Positions 3,186 through 49,158 of a stretch of 52,063 bases of DNA are shown here, piece by piece; positions within the stretch are counted from its first letter, which is position 1; the number at the start of each line of letters is the position of its first letter. Source of the stretch: an uncultured Flavobacteriales bacterium. Its GTDB lineage: Bacteria > Bacteroidota > Bacteroidia > Flavobacteriales_D > Sanyastnellaceae. The stretch lies in assembly GCA_938085105.1 (NCBI GenBank), contig CALKGK010000009.1:1-52063 (forward strand). Reading direction: 5' to 3'. The notes beneath the pieces were generated by a model. The model had not been told where the DNA came from. It worked only from the letters and a program-made list of their open reading frames with translations, and did no database searches. The position numbers and the translations under genes were made by a program.

Positions 3186-3209
3186 AAAAAAGCCCCGCAG
3201 TGCGGGGCT
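3186..3209 (-). terminator. Intrinsic terminator of rnpB
   Basis: Stem AGCCCCGC (3191-3198), loop AGT, stem GCGGGGCT (3202-3209). Read on the minus strand it is followed by a U-rich tract (complement of 3181-3190). It lies immediately 3' of the RNase P RNA. Confidence 0.9.
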
Positions 3210-3530
3210 ACAAATTCATAAGCCGGATTCTGTTCTTCAAAATAAATTGAAGTCTCGTCATTTATCTATTCAACCTACCCCCCAACTTCGAGCGAGCAGC
3301 CCTCAAACGCTGGTGTACATGGTATTTCATCCCACAAGGTTTACCAAAGCTTACACAATCACTTGTGCAACTGGTGAGCTCTTACCTCACCTTTTCACCC
3401 TTACCAAACATGTTGGCGGTTTAAATCTCTGTAGCACTATCTGTCATCCTAAAATGCCTGCTTTTTGGGCAGTGTGGCGCTCTTTGATGTCCGGACTTTC
3501 CTCTTCCGAAGAAGCGACGAGCCGATTTGC
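3210..3530 (-). ncRNA. rnpB: RNase P RNA (bacterial type A)
   Basis: This is the catalytic RNA that removes 5' leaders from pre-tRNAs. On the minus strand it carries the universal 5' core GAGGAAAGTCCGGAC (complement of about 3487-3501) and the 3' core ACAGAATCCGGCTTA (complement of about 3221-3235). The GGTAAGGGTGAAAAGGTG-type P-loop region lies between them. The 5' GCAAAT and 3' ATTTGT ends can pair to form P1, which sets the boundaries to within a few bases. Length is about 320 nt. A perfect -7 box lies at 3535-3542 and a hairpin terminator directly follows. The open frame running through it on the plus strand is spurious. The aldehyde dehydrogenase gene ends 24 bases upstream. Confidence 0.95.
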
Positions 3531-3534
3531 GGTG

Positions 3535-23233: not shown

Positions 23234-23872
23234 TCAAGGAGCTAATCGTTCCATTTTCCAATCACCACCTGAGCGTTTGTAGCGCAATCGATCGTGCAAT
23301 CGGCTTGGTCGACCTTGCCAAAATTCGAAGCTCTGTGCTTCAATAATAAAACCTCCCCAGAAATCTGGACGAGGAACCTCTTGTCCGTCAAAACGTTCTT
23401 CCATCGCCTTCACTTTCAATTGAAGTTCTTCTCGTGATTGAATTTCTTCACTTTGGTTGCTCGCCCAAGCACCAATTTGGGACGGTCTTGGTCGGGAAGC
23501 GAAGTACTCATCAGAAACCATTTCATCAATCTTACGAGCTACACCCGTAATACGCACTTGTCGTTCAAGCTCTTTCCAAAAGAAAGAAACGCAGACCTTA
23601 TTTTCATTAAGAATCTGTTTTGCTTTTGAACTGCTGTAATTGGTATAGAAAACCAAACCTTTTTCCGTGAATTCCCGGCAAAGGACAATTCTGCTTTGTG
23701 GGAATCCTTCTGCATTGATGCTTGAAAGAGTCATGGCATTGTAGTCCGTAGCATCAGACTCCTTGGCCTCTTTTAGCCACATCGTGAGTTGATCTGTTGG
23801 GTTTGACAATGCGTTTTCTTCGCTCAGCTGATCGTTACTGTAATCTTTTCTTACCGATTTAAGGTCTTTCAT
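23234..23872 (-). CDS. pdxH: Pyridoxamine 5'-phosphate oxidase
   Basis: This 212-aa FMN enzyme oxidises pyridoxamine or pyridoxine 5'-phosphate to pyridoxal phosphate, the last step of vitamin B6 salvage and synthesis. Family landmarks are MTLSSINAEGFPQSRIVLCR (FMN-phosphate contacts), LVFYTNYSSSKAKQI, VCVSFFWKELERQVRITG, the ASRPRPSQIGAWAS segment, and the C-terminal EFWQGRPSRLHDRLRY with the active-site RLHDR. The start chosen is the ATG at 23872 (MKDLKSVRKDYS). A longer version needs a TTG at 23902 and is less likely. A TACCTTTG box lies about 57 nt upstream. The repeat array at 23986-24425 lies behind its promoter. Confidence 0.95.
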   Translation of the reverse strand: MKDLKSVRKDYSNDQLSEENALSNPTDQLTMWLKEAKESDATDYNAMTLSSINAEGFPQSRIVLCREFTEKGLVFYTNYSSSKAKQILNENKVCVSFFWKELERQVRITGVARKIDEMVSDEYFASRPRPSQIGAWASNQSEEIQSREELQLKVKAMEERFDGQEVPRPDFWGGFIIEAQSFEFWQGRPSRLHDRLRYKRSGGDWKMERLAP

Positions 23873-23928
23873 AGCTATTGGTTCATCCTTGGTTGCTGAC
23901 AATAGAACTCTTAGAGTTTGAATTGGTT

Positions 23929-23985: not shown

Positions 23986-24425
23986 TGGATTGATAGGTTT
24001 AGGTCGCAAGATTGAGTTTTTTTATTGACCGGCTTACGTCGCAAGATTGAGTTTTCAGCGCTAATCATGCGGCTTTAACGCTGGTTTGAACCCTTATTGA
24101 CTTACGTCGCCAACCCCAAAATAAAGCTACTGACTTACGTCGCCAAAACAACTTCAACATTGAACGGCTTACGTCGCAAGAATAAGTTTTCAGCGCTAAC
24201 CATAAGGCGTTAACACTGGCTTGAACCCTTATTGACTTACGTCGCCCAAATTAAAAAATACAGCTATTGACTTACGTCGCCCAAAACAACTTCAACATTG
24301 AACGGCTTACGTCGCAAGATTGAGTTTTCAGCGCTAATCATGAGGCGTTAACACTAGTTTGAACGCTTATTGACTTACGTCGCCCAAAACCTTCAGCCCC
24401 ACTATCCCCCTGACCTACATCTCAC
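23986..24425. repeat. Higher-order tandem repeat built on CTTACGTCGC, 34-bp phase, 135-138-bp units
   Basis: The 10-mer CTTACGTCGC occurs exactly eight times on the plus strand, starting at 24033, 24101, 24134, 24168, 24236, 24271, 24306 and 24374. Degenerate copies flank the array at 23998 and 24414. Spacings are 35, 68, 33, 34, 68, 35, 35, 68 and 40 bp, close to multiples of 34. There are two element types: A, GGCTTACGTCGCAAGA, and B, TGACTTACGTCGCC. They are arranged A-B-B three times: 24031-24165 (135 bp), 24166-24303 (138 bp) and 24304-24425 (decaying). Each A block is exactly 67 bp. A truncated A copy precedes them. No frame stays open across the array on either strand. It lies between divergent pdxH and the DUF4236 gene. 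Confidence 0.95.
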
Positions 24426-24541
24426 ACCACGCTATAAAACACTACCACTTCAAGGCCTCTATTCCACCCTAAATTGACATTTCTTCGCATTCTTCGTTTG
24501 GAATTCAGTACCTTATGCTGTATTCTCACAAAAAAAATAAA

Positions 24542-25630
24542 ATGCGCTTCCGTCGTAAGACAAAAATTCTTCCCGGGGTTTACCTCAACTTTAGCAAATC
24601 AGGTGTGAGTACCACTATTGGCCCCAAAGGGGCTAGCGTAAACTTAGGAAAACAAGGTGCCTTTTTGAACACAGGCATTCCTGGAATGGGGCTCTATAAC
24701 CGTCAAAAGTTCTCATCCAAGTCCTCGACAAAATCCAATGCTACACAAAAGACTTCTAAAGAACAGTATCAAGATCTGATTGATGAGATTAAAAGCGACC
24801 CGGCCCAAAACCTCACTTCCGATTCACTAAAAGAGTTGAAAGCAACACTGCTCGATTGTCATATTCGACGACAAGAACTTACCTCGAAGATTGTCCGACA
24901 AAAAAATCGAGTAAAAAAAACACGCCAACTTCTAACTTGGATGCGCATCCTCATCATCGGATTTGTTGTTCTTTCCTTTCGAAGAAAATGGCTTGAAGCA
25001 AAACATGAGCTCAAAGGACTTCAACATCAACTCCATGATGAATTCATTGATATGGATCACGAATGGAACGATGAACTATCGAGCGCATACAATTCCGTTG
25101 AACTGGCTTTTGAGGGGTTGATGACTTGTCATAAAGTTTGGGATATCATCGGTGCTGGAAATAGACAAGCATTAAAAGGTCTGGTCGTTCGCGAAGAATG
25201 CAATTTGAACAGAAAAAGATTGGCCGAAATCAAATCTTCCCAAGAGGCACTCCACTTTGAAAACAACAATGGTGGCGAACTCTTCTTTTATCCCTTCTTT
25301 CTCAGTATAGTCGATGGTTTGGGTGAATTTGGTATTGTTGACTTTAAGGAGCTGAAAATTAGCTACGAAGAACACGAATTCACTGAAAACAATGAAATCC
25401 CCTTGGATTCAGAGGTCATCGACCATCGCTGGTTCAAAGAGAATAAGGACAACTCAAGGGACAAACGTTTCAAAAATAATTTTCAAATTCCTGTTTGTGC
25501 CTATGCCGGCATCACCTTCCAAACCGATAAGGGAGTGCACGAAAAATACATGTTCAGTAATCGCGATAAAGCGTCAAAATTTGTTGAAGAATTCCACTCC
25601 TACCAAAAACTGCTTTTACCAGAACTTTAA
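24542..25630 (+). CDS. DUF4236 protein with coiled coil, membrane segment and novel C-terminus
   Basis: The N-terminus (about 1-55) is a clear DUF4236 domain: PGVYLNFSKSGVSTTIGPKG, SVNLGKQGAFLNTGIPGMGL. A Ser/Thr/Lys-rich linker, a coiled coil (about 80-130) and a hydrophobic segment (WMRILIIGFVVLSF, about 131-144) follow. The C-terminal region (about 160-362) contains a possible PH-like beta sandwich (GELFFYPFFLSIVDGLGEFG ... VCAYAGITFQTDKGVH). DUF4236 has no known function. The ATG at 24542 (MRFRRKTKILPG) fits the family; an ATG nine codons upstream (24515) is possible. Candidate promoter: TTTG (about 24495-24498), 20 nt, then TATTCTCA. The gene and the repeat array together may be an accessory insertion between pdxH and the helicase gene. 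Confidence 0.85.
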   Translation: MRFRRKTKILPGVYLNFSKSGVSTTIGPKGASVNLGKQGAFLNTGIPGMGLYNRQKFSSKSSTKSNATQKTSKEQYQDLIDEIKSDPAQNLTSDSLKELKATLLDCHIRRQELTSKIVRQKNRVKKTRQLLTWMRILIIGFVVLSFRRKWLEAKHELKGLQHQLHDEFIDMDHEWNDELSSAYNSVELAFEGLMTCHKVWDIIGAGNRQALKGLVVREECNLNRKRLAEIKSSQEALHFENNNGGELFFYPFFLSIVDGLGEFGIVDFKELKISYEEHEFTENNEIPLDSEVIDHRWFKENKDNSRDKRFKNNFQIPVCAYAGITFQTDKGVHEKYMFSNRDKASKFVEEFHSYQKLLLPEL

Positions 25631-46419: not shown

Positions 46420-49158
46420 ATGAAACGAATACTGAATTACGCGCTATTTCTAGGCGTCGTCTTGCTTTACACATCTAATTTACGGTCCCAGATTAGTCAA
46501 GGAGGTACTCCCATTACTTGGAACAACGATAAAATCAATTGGAATATCCCCAATTATGAACTGGATTCCTTTGATATCGAGGCCTATCTCGCTGAAGATG
46601 AAATTGTCAATGAAACCAAGGCTGCTCCTTACCGTTTCGGAAAAAACTTTGATGTTTCATTAACGTTTGACAACGCTGGTCGTTGGAAAACACTTCCCAA
46701 CGGAGATCGTGTTTGGTTGATGAGTATTGAATCTGCTGGAGCCAAATCCATCAATCTCGCCTTTGATCAATTCTACCTCCAACCCGGTTGTGAATTATTC
46801 ATGTATTCAGAGGATCACGCTCATTTGATTGGGGCCTTCACCCATAAAAATAACGCAGCAGACGGGCTTTTTGCTACTTATCCATTACCTGGAGAGAAAA
46901 TTATTTTGGAATTTTATGAGCCACTTGAGCAAGTTGGAAATTCAAGCATCGAGATCAAAACCGTTACCCATGCATACCGCGATTTAGATGTCATCGCTCG
47001 AGGCATTGGTGATTCTGGAGCCTGCAATAACAATGTGGTGTGCTCAGAAGGAGATCCTTGGGAGGATCAAATTAACGCGGTTGCCATGGTTGTTGTTGGA
47101 TCTAACGGGATTTGTACTGGAGCTTTGATCAATAACACTGCAAACGATGGTCACCCCTATTTTTTAACTGCTGACCACTGCACAGGTGGCGGGGTAAGTA
47201 ATTGGGTTTTCCGTTTTAATTGGCAAAGCACTACCTGCGTTGGAAATAACGCAGGTACCTTCCAAACTGTTAATGGTTCAACTATGCTGGCACAAGGAGG
47301 AATAGCAGATTATGCCCTTCTAGAAATCAATAACGGGAACCCCATTCCGCAAGCAGCCACTCCGTATTTTGCAGGTTGGGATGCTACTGGAGTTAACCCG
47401 AACAGCCAGGTAGCCATTCACCACCCTTCTGGTGATTTAAAGAAAATTTCATTTGATACTGATCCAGCAGGAACCGCTACTTATGGAGGCGCTACATGTT
47501 GGAGAATTTTCGATTGGGAAGATGGAACCACTGAGCCAGGCTCTTCCGGATCTCCTTTGTATGATCAGAACCAAAGGATCATTGGTCAGCTTTACGGCGG
47601 ACAAGCAACTTGCTCAAATAATGTCAACGATTATTACGGAAAATTCGATGTGACCTTTCCGTTTGTATGTCAGTGGCTAGCCCCTGGCTGTGTTGCCACT
47701 GCAATCGATGGTTATGATCCTTATGCCCCTTCTGTTGCTTTGGATGCACAGGCATCGGGTGTTGTGGAACCTTCGGGAACCTATTGTTCGAATACAATTA
47801 CTCCTGAAGTCAACATTCGCAACGCAGGAACGACTACACTTACTTCTTTAACCATTACTTATAATGTAGATGGCGGAAGCAATCAAGTGTTTAACTGGAC
47901 CGGTTCACTTGCGAGCGCTGCTATTGCTTCAGTGACTTTACCAGCCTTGTCACTCGGTGATGGCCCGCACACCTTCAACTACACCGTCTCTTCTCCAAAT
48001 GGAGGAAGCGATGAAAATGCTGCGAACAACTCTGCCAGCTCTAGTTTCAGCACTACTTCTAATGGAGTGGATTTTAACTTCACTTTGTTGACCGATAACT
48101 ACCCAGGGGAAACAACATGGACCATTGCAGATGATCAAGGAACTGTGCTTTTCTCTGGCGGACCCTATGCAGACACGCAGACGACGTATTCAATCGATGC
48201 TTGTTTGCCTGCAGGGTGCTACGATTTAACCGTGTTTGACTCATTTGGAGACGGTATGCAATACCAAGGAGTCGTAGGAAACTATACCTTGAGCGACGAT
48301 CAAGGAAACGTGCTTGTGAGCATGATTGCTGGAGGAAACTTCGGAGCATCTGCCACTGATCAATTCTGTTTGACAGCAAGCGGTACACCAGGCTGTACGG
48401 ACAACACCGCCTGTAATTTCAATGCCTCCGCTACTACTGATGATGGATCGTGTGAGTTTACTTCATGCGCAGGATGTACGGATGTAAATGCTTGTAACTA
48501 CGACGCCACCGCAACAATTGATGATGGCTCTTGTGAATCTACCACATGTGCTGGATGTACGAACCCAAGTGCTTGTAACTACGACGCAGCGGCAACCATC
48601 GACGACGGCTCTTGTCAACTTCCTGATGGATGTACCGATGCGGGAGCATGTAATTACGACGCCAGCGCTGTGTGCGACAACGGAAGTTGTGAATTCACTT
48701 CTTGTGCAGGTTGTACCAACCCAAGTGCGTGTAACTTCAACGCTGGAGCGAGTATTGACGACGGATCATGTGTTTTGCCAAGCGTAACTTACTATTTGGA
48801 TAGCGATGGAGATGGATTTGGTGATGCAGCTGTAAGCCAGGTAGCATGTTCAGCACCTGCGAATTATGTGACAGACAACACGGATTGTGACGACTCCAAC
48901 GCAGATATGTATCCAAACGCACCATCTACTGAAACAGGAATTGATAACGATTGTAACGGAACCGTAGATCCAGATGAGCTTGCTCCTTGTATGGGTGATT
49001 TTAATGGAGACGGAAACCGAAACATTAGTGATATGCTTATGATGCTCGAATTCTTCGGTTGTTCTGGAAATTGCCAAGGTGATTTGAACCAAGATCAAAA
49101 CGTGAACGGTAGCGACGTACTCGTGTTCTTAAGCTTCTTTGGAACAACGTGTAACTAA
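46420..49158 (+). CDS. Secreted trypsin-like (lysyl-endopeptidase-type) serine protease with Cys-rich repeats and dockerin-like C-terminus
   Basis: This 912-aa exported protein has a signal peptide (MKRILNYALFLGVVLLYTSN...) and a chymotrypsin-fold domain (about 190-425) whose catalytic triad reads H253 (LTADHCTGG), D297 (IADYALLEI) and S376 (GSSGSPLYD). A CARDB/Ig-like domain (about 440-548) and a beta module (about 548-655) follow. Then come five Cys-rich repeats (48391-48783) and a MopE-like metal-binding segment (YYLDSDGDGFGD, TDCDDSNADMYPNAPS, DNDCNGTVDPDE). The protein ends in a dockerin-like pair of Ca-binding loops (DFNGDGNRNISDMLMMLEFF, DLNQDQNVNGSDVLVFLSFF). T9SS-type export is likely, but the usual sorting domain is absent. 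A terminator follows at 49171-49205. Confidence 0.9.
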   Translation: MKRILNYALFLGVVLLYTSNLRSQISQGGTPITWNNDKINWNIPNYELDSFDIEAYLAEDEIVNETKAAPYRFGKNFDVSLTFDNAGRWKTLPNGDRVWLMSIESAGAKSINLAFDQFYLQPGCELFMYSEDHAHLIGAFTHKNNAADGLFATYPLPGEKIILEFYEPLEQVGNSSIEIKTVTHAYRDLDVIARGIGDSGACNNNVVCSEGDPWEDQINAVAMVVVGSNGICTGALINNTANDGHPYFLTADHCTGGGVSNWVFRFNWQSTTCVGNNAGTFQTVNGSTMLAQGGIADYALLEINNGNPIPQAATPYFAGWDATGVNPNSQVAIHHPSGDLKKISFDTDPAGTATYGGATCWRIFDWEDGTTEPGSSGSPLYDQNQRIIGQLYGGQATCSNNVNDYYGKFDVTFPFVCQWLAPGCVATAIDGYDPYAPSVALDAQASGVVEPSGTYCSNTITPEVNIRNAGTTTLTSLTITYNVDGGSNQVFNWTGSLASAAIASVTLPALSLGDGPHTFNYTVSSPNGGSDENAANNSASSSFSTTSNGVDFNFTLLTDNYPGETTWTIADDQGTVLFSGGPYADTQTTYSIDACLPAGCYDLTVFDSFGDGMQYQGVVGNYTLSDDQGNVLVSMIAGGNFGASATDQFCLTASGTPGCTDNTACNFNASATTDDGSCEFTSCAGCTDVNACNYDATATIDDGSCESTTCAGCTNPSACNYDAAATIDDGSCQLPDGCTDAGACNYDASAVCDNGSCEFTSCAGCTNPSACNFNAGASIDDGSCVLPSVTYYLDSDGDGFGDAAVSQVACSAPANYVTDNTDCDDSNADMYPNAPSTETGIDNDCNGTVDPDELAPCMGDFNGDGNRNISDMLMMLEFFGCSGNCQGDLNQDQNVNGSDVLVFLSFFGTTCN
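48391..48783 (+). repeat. Five tandem 75-81-bp coding repeats (Cys-rich GCTxxxACNYDA module)
   Basis: In-frame units start at 48391, 48472, 48553, 48628 and 48709; each encodes 25 or 27 residues. The consensus is GCT(D/N)xxACN(Y/F)(N/D)AxA followed by xxDDGSC, with four cysteines in most units. The fourth unit differs (VCDNGSC). The same repeat occurs in the next gene from 51896. Confidence 0.92.

Follow-up and report, generated by a model that had tools for sequence, protein, structure and literature searches.

The window, by which we mean the whole analysed stretch of 52,063 nucleotides, carries an array in which, as we read it, transposon ends of two kinds are repeated in tandem; it would belong to a REP/RAYT-like system that came from a DDE-less IS1595 lineage. 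We give this reading a probability of about 0.75. It is almost certain that the arrays of this type derive from the terminal inverted repeats (TIRs) of an IS1595-like gene family, A to E. A REP/RAYT-like working pairing of the arrays with the DDE-less proteins is probable.

The array in the window

The array is located between a pyridoxamine 5'-phosphate oxidase-like (PNPOx) gene on the left (23234–23902, minus strand; Pfam PF01243 and PF10590) and a DUF4236 gene on the right (24515–25630, plus strand; Pfam PF14020). The profile scan showed nine elements of about 22 bp in a single orientation (+) between 23988 and 24389. The exact core CTTACGTCGC, of which the earlier note had reported eight copies, was located eight times, at 24033, 24101, 24134, 24168, 24236, 24271, 24306, and 24374, always on the plus strand. 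With at most one mismatch, it gave 9 matches in the window against 1.11 expected, and 9 was reached in 0 of 100 shuffles. The spacings from element to element were 35, 68, 33, 34, 68, 35, 35, and 68 bp, and the repeat units of 135 and 138 bp described before were both found.

Read from left to right, the subtypes are A A B B A B B A B. The A element reads ATTGAMCGG-CTTACGTCGC-AAGA and the B element CTATTGA-CTTACGTCGC-CCAA, and all elements given below are on the plus strand. The array opens with a degenerate A element, GATTGATAGG-TTTAGGTCGC-AAGATT (23988–24013, core 23998–24007; 25.6 bits), and continues with a second A element, TATTGACCGG-CTTACGTCGC-AAGATT (24023–24048, core 24033–24042). Two B elements come next, CCCTTATTGA-CTTACGTCGC-CAACCC (24091–24116, core 24101–24110) and AAGCTACTGA-CTTACGTCGC-CAAAAC (24124–24149, core 24134–24143). 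The A element CATTGAACGG-CTTACGTCGC-AAGAAT (24158–24183, core 24168–24177) is again followed by two B elements, CCCTTATTGA-CTTACGTCGC-CCAAAT (24226–24251, core 24236–24245) and CAGCTATTGA-CTTACGTCGC-CCAAAA (24261–24286, core 24271–24280). The last pair consists of the A element CATTGAACGG-CTTACGTCGC-AAGATT (24296–24321, core 24306–24315) and the B element CGCTTATTGA-CTTACGTCGC-CCAAAA (24364–24389, core 24374–24383).

For a re-scoring of the nine elements, the profile was built anew from 51 elements, all from outside the window, and it gave values of 25.1 to 31.3 bits. Two decayed copies had been proposed in addition to the exact ones. The first, TTTAGGTCGC at 23998, stood, with 25.7 bits on the window-free profile against at most 2.2 bits at any position of the window apart from the nine elements. 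The second, CCTACATCTC at 24414–24423, scored −10.9, −4.8, or 0.8 bits depending on the pseudocount; it has three core mismatches, is preceded by CTGA like the B elements, and may be a worn B element (24404–24429, plus strand). A fourth element, supposed in the middle of each A block, was not recovered, as the best profile scores there were −22 to −24 bits and no stable hairpin was observed either (z 0.05).

No inverted repeats were found in the window array. Between 23850 and 24560 we observed one promoter-like site (1.2 expected) and no terminator (0.7 expected); a promoter or terminator role of the array was set aside, as these counts are no higher than chance expectation. A CRISPR array has near-identical long repeats, unique spacers, and adjoining cas genes. 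Here two repeat subtypes alternate, the spacers are repeated, and the flanking genes are PNPOx and DUF4236, and this candidate was rejected. The only match of the window to known RNA families was distant from the array, a complete bacterial class A RNase P RNA at 3203–3533 (minus strand, 196 bits). A tandem repeat of 81 bp in 2.4 copies (48424–48615) was also seen, within a 912-aa open frame at 46420–49158.

The element family in two species

The 10-mer core occurred 32 times in the genome of the window (G000), compared with 13 for the reversed control pattern. The gene content suggests that the genus is one of the Bacteroidota. The profile search, with a sequence-only model of 58 elements at E up to 1, gave at least 72 matches in G000 and at least 79 in its congener G001; these counts may be low, as at most 150 first-pass candidates were scored per genome. 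For other genomes of the family, G002, G007, G010, and G016, the same profile listed 1, 1, 1, and 0 matches, respectively. Of 60 relatives, three carried the exact core, one of these as a single site in apparent coding DNA, and a core-pair search responded in 3 of 114 family genomes, in one of these (G078) with a single pair judged to be chance. In the genomes searched, the repeat family is restricted to the genus. An exact 15-mer scan of contigs was discarded: at least 117 stretches gave one match each, judged to be chance, and the pattern was too short for the collection.

Elements of at least 11 bits in the stretches read numbered 75 in G000 and 91 in G001. They formed 27 and 23 clusters, respectively, 18 of them in each genome with two or more elements. 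Orientation was uniform within 34 of the 36 multi-element clusters; it was mixed in the E elements of G001 C26 and in G000 C44:45.3k. The 11-bit profile overlooked one weak copy in G001 C27. One array in each species spans two contigs (C76/C45 in G000, C12/C102 in G001), and the same locus is represented twice, in different versions, by G001 C27 and C69; the distinct arrays are therefore slightly fewer than counted. Array numbers are probably underestimated, because short-read assemblies break at arrays. Contig ends fell in or near arrays at C76/C45 and C94 of G000 and at C12/C102, C27/C69, C54, and C73 of G001.

No chosen reading frame was overlapped by 40 of 49 clusters (one further cluster, which had no gene calls, was omitted). 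Among the other nine, one was a single weak hit within a 1624-aa frame, one was a gene's own end, five touched only frames of 93–232 aa that have no match across the species, and two overlapped a conserved frame near its start, where the frame was probably called too long. Clusters followed a co-oriented gene in 19 of 30 cases (p = 0.20), and the gaps were divergent in 9, convergent in 8, and co-directional in 7 cases. An apparent preference of arrays for places after the 3' end of co-oriented genes therefore failed on the full count. The spacing of other arrays was 35, 38, 45–46, 57, 77–83, 102–103, or 113–137 bp, and the general 34-bp phase suggested by the earlier note did not hold. Its four-element 34-bp ancestor found no support either, as the unit in the window instead mixes subtypes A and B, the ends of two different genes.

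The elements fall into five subtypes, A–E. Subtype A is spelled ATTGAACGG in G000 and GATAACCGG in G001. Subtype B has TATTGA, C has CTATCCA or CTTATCCA, D has CTATCGG, and E has CTATATA with GTCTC. The spelling is species-wide. A elements with ATT were 23 of 23 in G000 and 0 of 36 in G001, C elements with CTATCCA were 15 of 18 and 0 of 38, and B elements with C/TTTACGTC were 19 of 23 and 0 of 6, respectively; copies within one array are not independent, so these counts overstate the number of events. For A, B, and C the species-specific spelling spans unlinked loci, and the array elements match the gene-linked ends. In subtype D the 5' half did not vary with the species.

Unlinked loci also have spacers in common, as in the C units of about 80 bp in G001 C15, C47, C73, and C95 and in G000 C36 and C48. 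This indicates that units were copied between loci and that not the core alone was kept. Folding of four single elements showed no advantage over shuffled sequences (z 0.58 to −1.03); they are not palindromic. The clearest miniature-element array seen is in G001 C26 (L301, 2740–3010), where three tandem units of about 77 bp, with about 26 bp between one unit and the next, each have both inverted E-type ends. In G001 C95 (L297, 2887–3209) two kinds of C unit of about 78 bp alternate and give a higher-order repeat of about 156 bp. At a contig end of G000 C4 (L280, 1–70) we observed three 19-bp tandem copies of GATTTAGGTCGCTTCGCTT with the core TTAGGTCGC, without A–E flanks. C-type elements, such as those of G001 C47 (L277), contain TTATCCA, seven letters of the DnaA-box consensus TTATCCACA; this is probably a coincidence.

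Gene ends and DDE-less IS1595-like proteins

Facing element pairs in G000 enclose a gene of about 290 aa. Gene and family-profile searches gave five members in G001, and in G000 four of full length together with one fragment. Each species has one gene for each subtype. Genes A–D are at shared loci, and gene E is whole in G001 (C62) and a fragment in G000 (C35). Reading frames were open in 9 of the 10 genes, 8 of these 9 at loci common to both species. Gene A is on C45 and gene B on C37 of G000, and the window array joins the ends of both.

Each subtype matches the TIR of its own paralogous gene. An inverted element was present at the gene 3' end in 8 of 10 loci; in 7 it had an identical offset and encoded the last codons and the stop, for example GCGACGTAA. 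The type-C genes of both species, 2 of the 10 gene loci, were without the 3' element. One or more elements in the same orientation as the gene were found upstream at 9 of 10 gene loci, at G001 C88 only with 2 mismatches. Intact relatives have TIRs of the same layout, as in G007, with the TIR GGTTTAACGGCTTACATCTCA and a gene that ends GAG ATG TAA inside it. When a profile made only from elements of the genus was applied to the intact relatives, its best hit was at a gene end in 5 of 6 loci, and in 4 of the 6 a hit fell at exactly the 3' offset known from the genus; the ends of the intact relative in G026 (L338) were not found. The elements are homologous to the TIRs of intact IS1595 relatives. 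Insertion sequences of the IS1595 family make an 8-bp target-site duplication. No such duplication was seen by eye in the two units viewed (G001 C82 and G000 C44).

The A–E genes were not found to be multi-copy and mobile like those of IS1595. No intact IS1595 relative was found in G000 or G001, as the 5 and 5 matches were all of the A–E set. Of the 199 genomes of the order, 33 had relatives at E up to 1e-8, with at most 248 bits outside the genus compared with 366–445 bits for the nine proteins. In the tree the nine proteins formed one clade (100/100), with the pairs A-A (89/93), B-B (95/96), and D-D (92/94). The C proteins gave no resolved pair and were paired by their neighbouring genes.

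All nine proteins matched Zn_ribbon_IS1595 (PF12760; E 1e-5 to 3e-3), and two of them reached the Pfam gathering score. The four zinc-ribbon cysteines are invariant, and the ribbon and a W/H-rich C-terminus are conserved among the nine. NCBIfam transpos_IS1595 was also hit by all nine; one member scored 35.6 against a cut-off of 75. Both protein ends are retained (hhalign probability 100, E 1.1e-64). In DDE_Tnp_IS1595 the nine proteins matched only the last 25–37 of 153 positions, whereas three relatives from other genera matched positions 2–153. The VDE and TDGW motifs were absent from 9 of 9 proteins in the alignment, where the VDE position is a gap and the TD aspartate is missing; E61 and E246 are the only invariant acidic positions. 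Intact relatives with the VDE and TD motifs were found in G007, G026, G010, G054, and G240. By eye, G001 C62 and C82 carry LDE near the position that VDE has in the relatives. In these two the first of the catalytic acids might therefore still be present, displaced in the alignment.

The Pfam matches of the nine proteins included no Y1 domain. None of the nine matched a PADLOC defence system, the family profile had no match among solved structures, and all nine matched one PHROGs family without function. Zinc-ribbon proteins of 283–306 aa with no visible VDE or TD motif were also observed in another genus of the family, g6 (G006 L272 and L249; G025 L247, L255, and L240), with TIRs TGATTATCCG... 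Their end pattern was found 11 and 8 times in that genus, with no cluster except the gene-flanking pairs. DDE-less proteins therefore do not always go with arrays. The g6 proteins possibly represent a parallel loss of the DDE site.

Loci, rival explanations, and proposed working

Fourteen element loci have flanking genes common to G000 and G001. They are, as G000/G001, C37:22k/C82, C36:107k/C131, C45:73k/C29, C35:69k/C62, C44:42k/C88:25.7k, C44:39k/C88:28k, C36:8.8k/C73, C76-C45/C12-C102, C36:112k/C94, C43/C41, C94/C54, and, with one common flank only, C45:15k/C102:15k, window/C27-C69, and C12:83.6k/C17-C69. Ten other loci are occupied in one species only. The orthologous gaps hold no element of at least 9 bits; both flanks were located for five of these gaps and one flank for the other five.

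The array stands between PNPOx and DUF4236 in G000. In G001 the order is a TraB-like gene, an A array, and DUF4236, so that an A-type array lies directly upstream of DUF4236 as in the window. The end of C69 and the start of C27 overlap by 481 bp at 95%, which suggests that the two contigs join here. By our own count, 21 of the 24 differences in this overlap fall within the array; 2 more come immediately ahead of it, and the flanks have 1. The PNPOx gene of G001 adjoins the A-type gene and A elements, and the TraB-like gene of G000 adjoins a different A/B array (C12:83.6k). A zinc-protease-like gene, which is beside gene A in G000 and was expected as the third rearranged flank, was not found among the G001 stretches read; the other neighbour of the G001 C17 array is a methyltransferase-like gene. 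The changed gene neighbourhoods meet at arrays. Of the roles that the earlier note had offered, that of a recombination substrate gains support, as the differing gene orders of the two species break at arrays. That of a protein-binding array may fit, since the elements are transposase-end sequences and their cognate transposase-like proteins are encoded by the genome itself.

It is unlikely that the system is only a relic, in which an active DDE IS1595 scattered its ends and miniature copies and died out, the DDE-less genes being decayed or non-autonomous (perhaps repressors) and the arrays changing by slippage and ordinary recombination only. The loss of the DDE motifs, the fragment of gene E in G000 (C35) that is whole in G001 (C62), and the E elements of G001 C26, which resemble three tandem two-ended miniature units, agree with it. 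However, neither species yielded an intact relative, all matches being of the A–E set, the frames have stayed open in nine of ten genes, eight of them at shared loci, and since the two species diverged the A, B, and C spellings have shifted at unlinked loci in step with the ends of their genes. This change and the loci occupied in one species only ask for continued activity. A plain minisatellite without function, grown by slippage, is very improbable; the tandem copies and the concentration of strain-level differences in the C69/C27 array of G001 (21 of 24) are what it would explain. The same element stands in many unlinked arrays of two species, tied to the ends of one gene family. The genome-wide pattern refutes slippage as a full account, and the chance minisatellite of the earlier note is disfavoured by the search of the genome and its relative, with 18 clusters of at least two elements per genome in both congeners and an array beside the same DUF4236 gene.

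Rather doubtful is the explanation by host regulatory or structural arrays, where the host would have taken over the proteins for DNA binding and the arrays would be binding platforms under selection, serving for instance chromosome organisation or regulation of neighbours. The 14 loci with common flanking genes, the conserved zinc ribbon and C-terminus, and the concerted change of sites and gene ends are in line with it. The ten single-species loci, the lack of an orientation rule relative to neighbours, and the shared spacers, which suggest that whole units and not sites alone were copied, speak against it.

Among the closest known systems are REP sequences or BIMEs with RAYT (TnpA-REP), the REPtrons. 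In the outline given in PMC8266576, these are scattered short intergenic repeats of several subtypes, each with a single-copy, apparently non-mobile transposase-like gene that is flanked by its own repeats, and repeats and protein change together. The elements described here likewise lie next to their genes as well as dispersed through intergenic DNA, and they co-evolve with these genes. A RAYT, however, is an HUH/Y1 protein of IS200/IS605 relationship, and a REP is a palindrome that carries a GTAG-type tag. The proteins of the present system are IS1595-like, have a zinc ribbon, and lack DDE motifs, and its repeats are non-palindromic and mostly direct (34 of 36 clusters). The arrays therefore resemble REP/RAYT in their way of life but are not members. 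With the zinc-ribbon groups of IS1595 insertion sequences they share Zn_ribbon_IS1595, TIRs, and a stop codon inside the TIR; unlike these, the DDE domain is unpreserved in 9 of 9 proteins, the genes are at positions shared between species, and ends are abundant without a gene. MITEs are likewise non-coding units with transposon ends, and the E units of G001 C26 are two-ended, but most arrays hold ends in a single orientation, and the window array does not have inverted ends on both sides of a short unit. STAR elements of Staphylococcus, by the description in the abstract of PMC3532100, are also interspersed intergenic direct-repeat arrays; they expand and contract, and their locations differ between species. 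That abstract names no cognate protein, and here 14 loci have common neighbours. No paper on an IS1595-derived repeat system was found in the open-licence PMC literature; the IS1595 family itself is reported to have been defined in a 2009 paper.

In the REP/RAYT-like reading, each DDE-less protein would bind its own end subtype. Units of 35, 38, 45, or 80 bp, or longer, would be copied within and between loci by recombination, perhaps aided by the protein, and the same process would homogenise them. The arrays would persist through the pairing of protein and end, as REPs do with RAYT proteins. We infer from the sequences both that protein binds the arrays and that the arrays may be of use to the host. 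Going further, we tentatively suggest a second, independent origin of the REP/RAYT type. A triad-less IS1595 lineage would have given five vertically inherited end-binding proteins, each keeping and spreading its own ends by a non-DDE route, with the arrays as preferred points of rearrangement.

If such a pairing has also arisen in an unrelated transposon family, it would show that transposon ends together with a tamed transposase can become settled in bacterial genomes repeatedly. Whether these pairs live by mobility, by a service to their host, or by both could then be tested. Since gene and array agree in their spelling, the five subtypes of the two species would form a specificity series that is ready for use in binding tests. 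That arrays coincide with breaks in gene order may give a simple explanation for some rearrangements.
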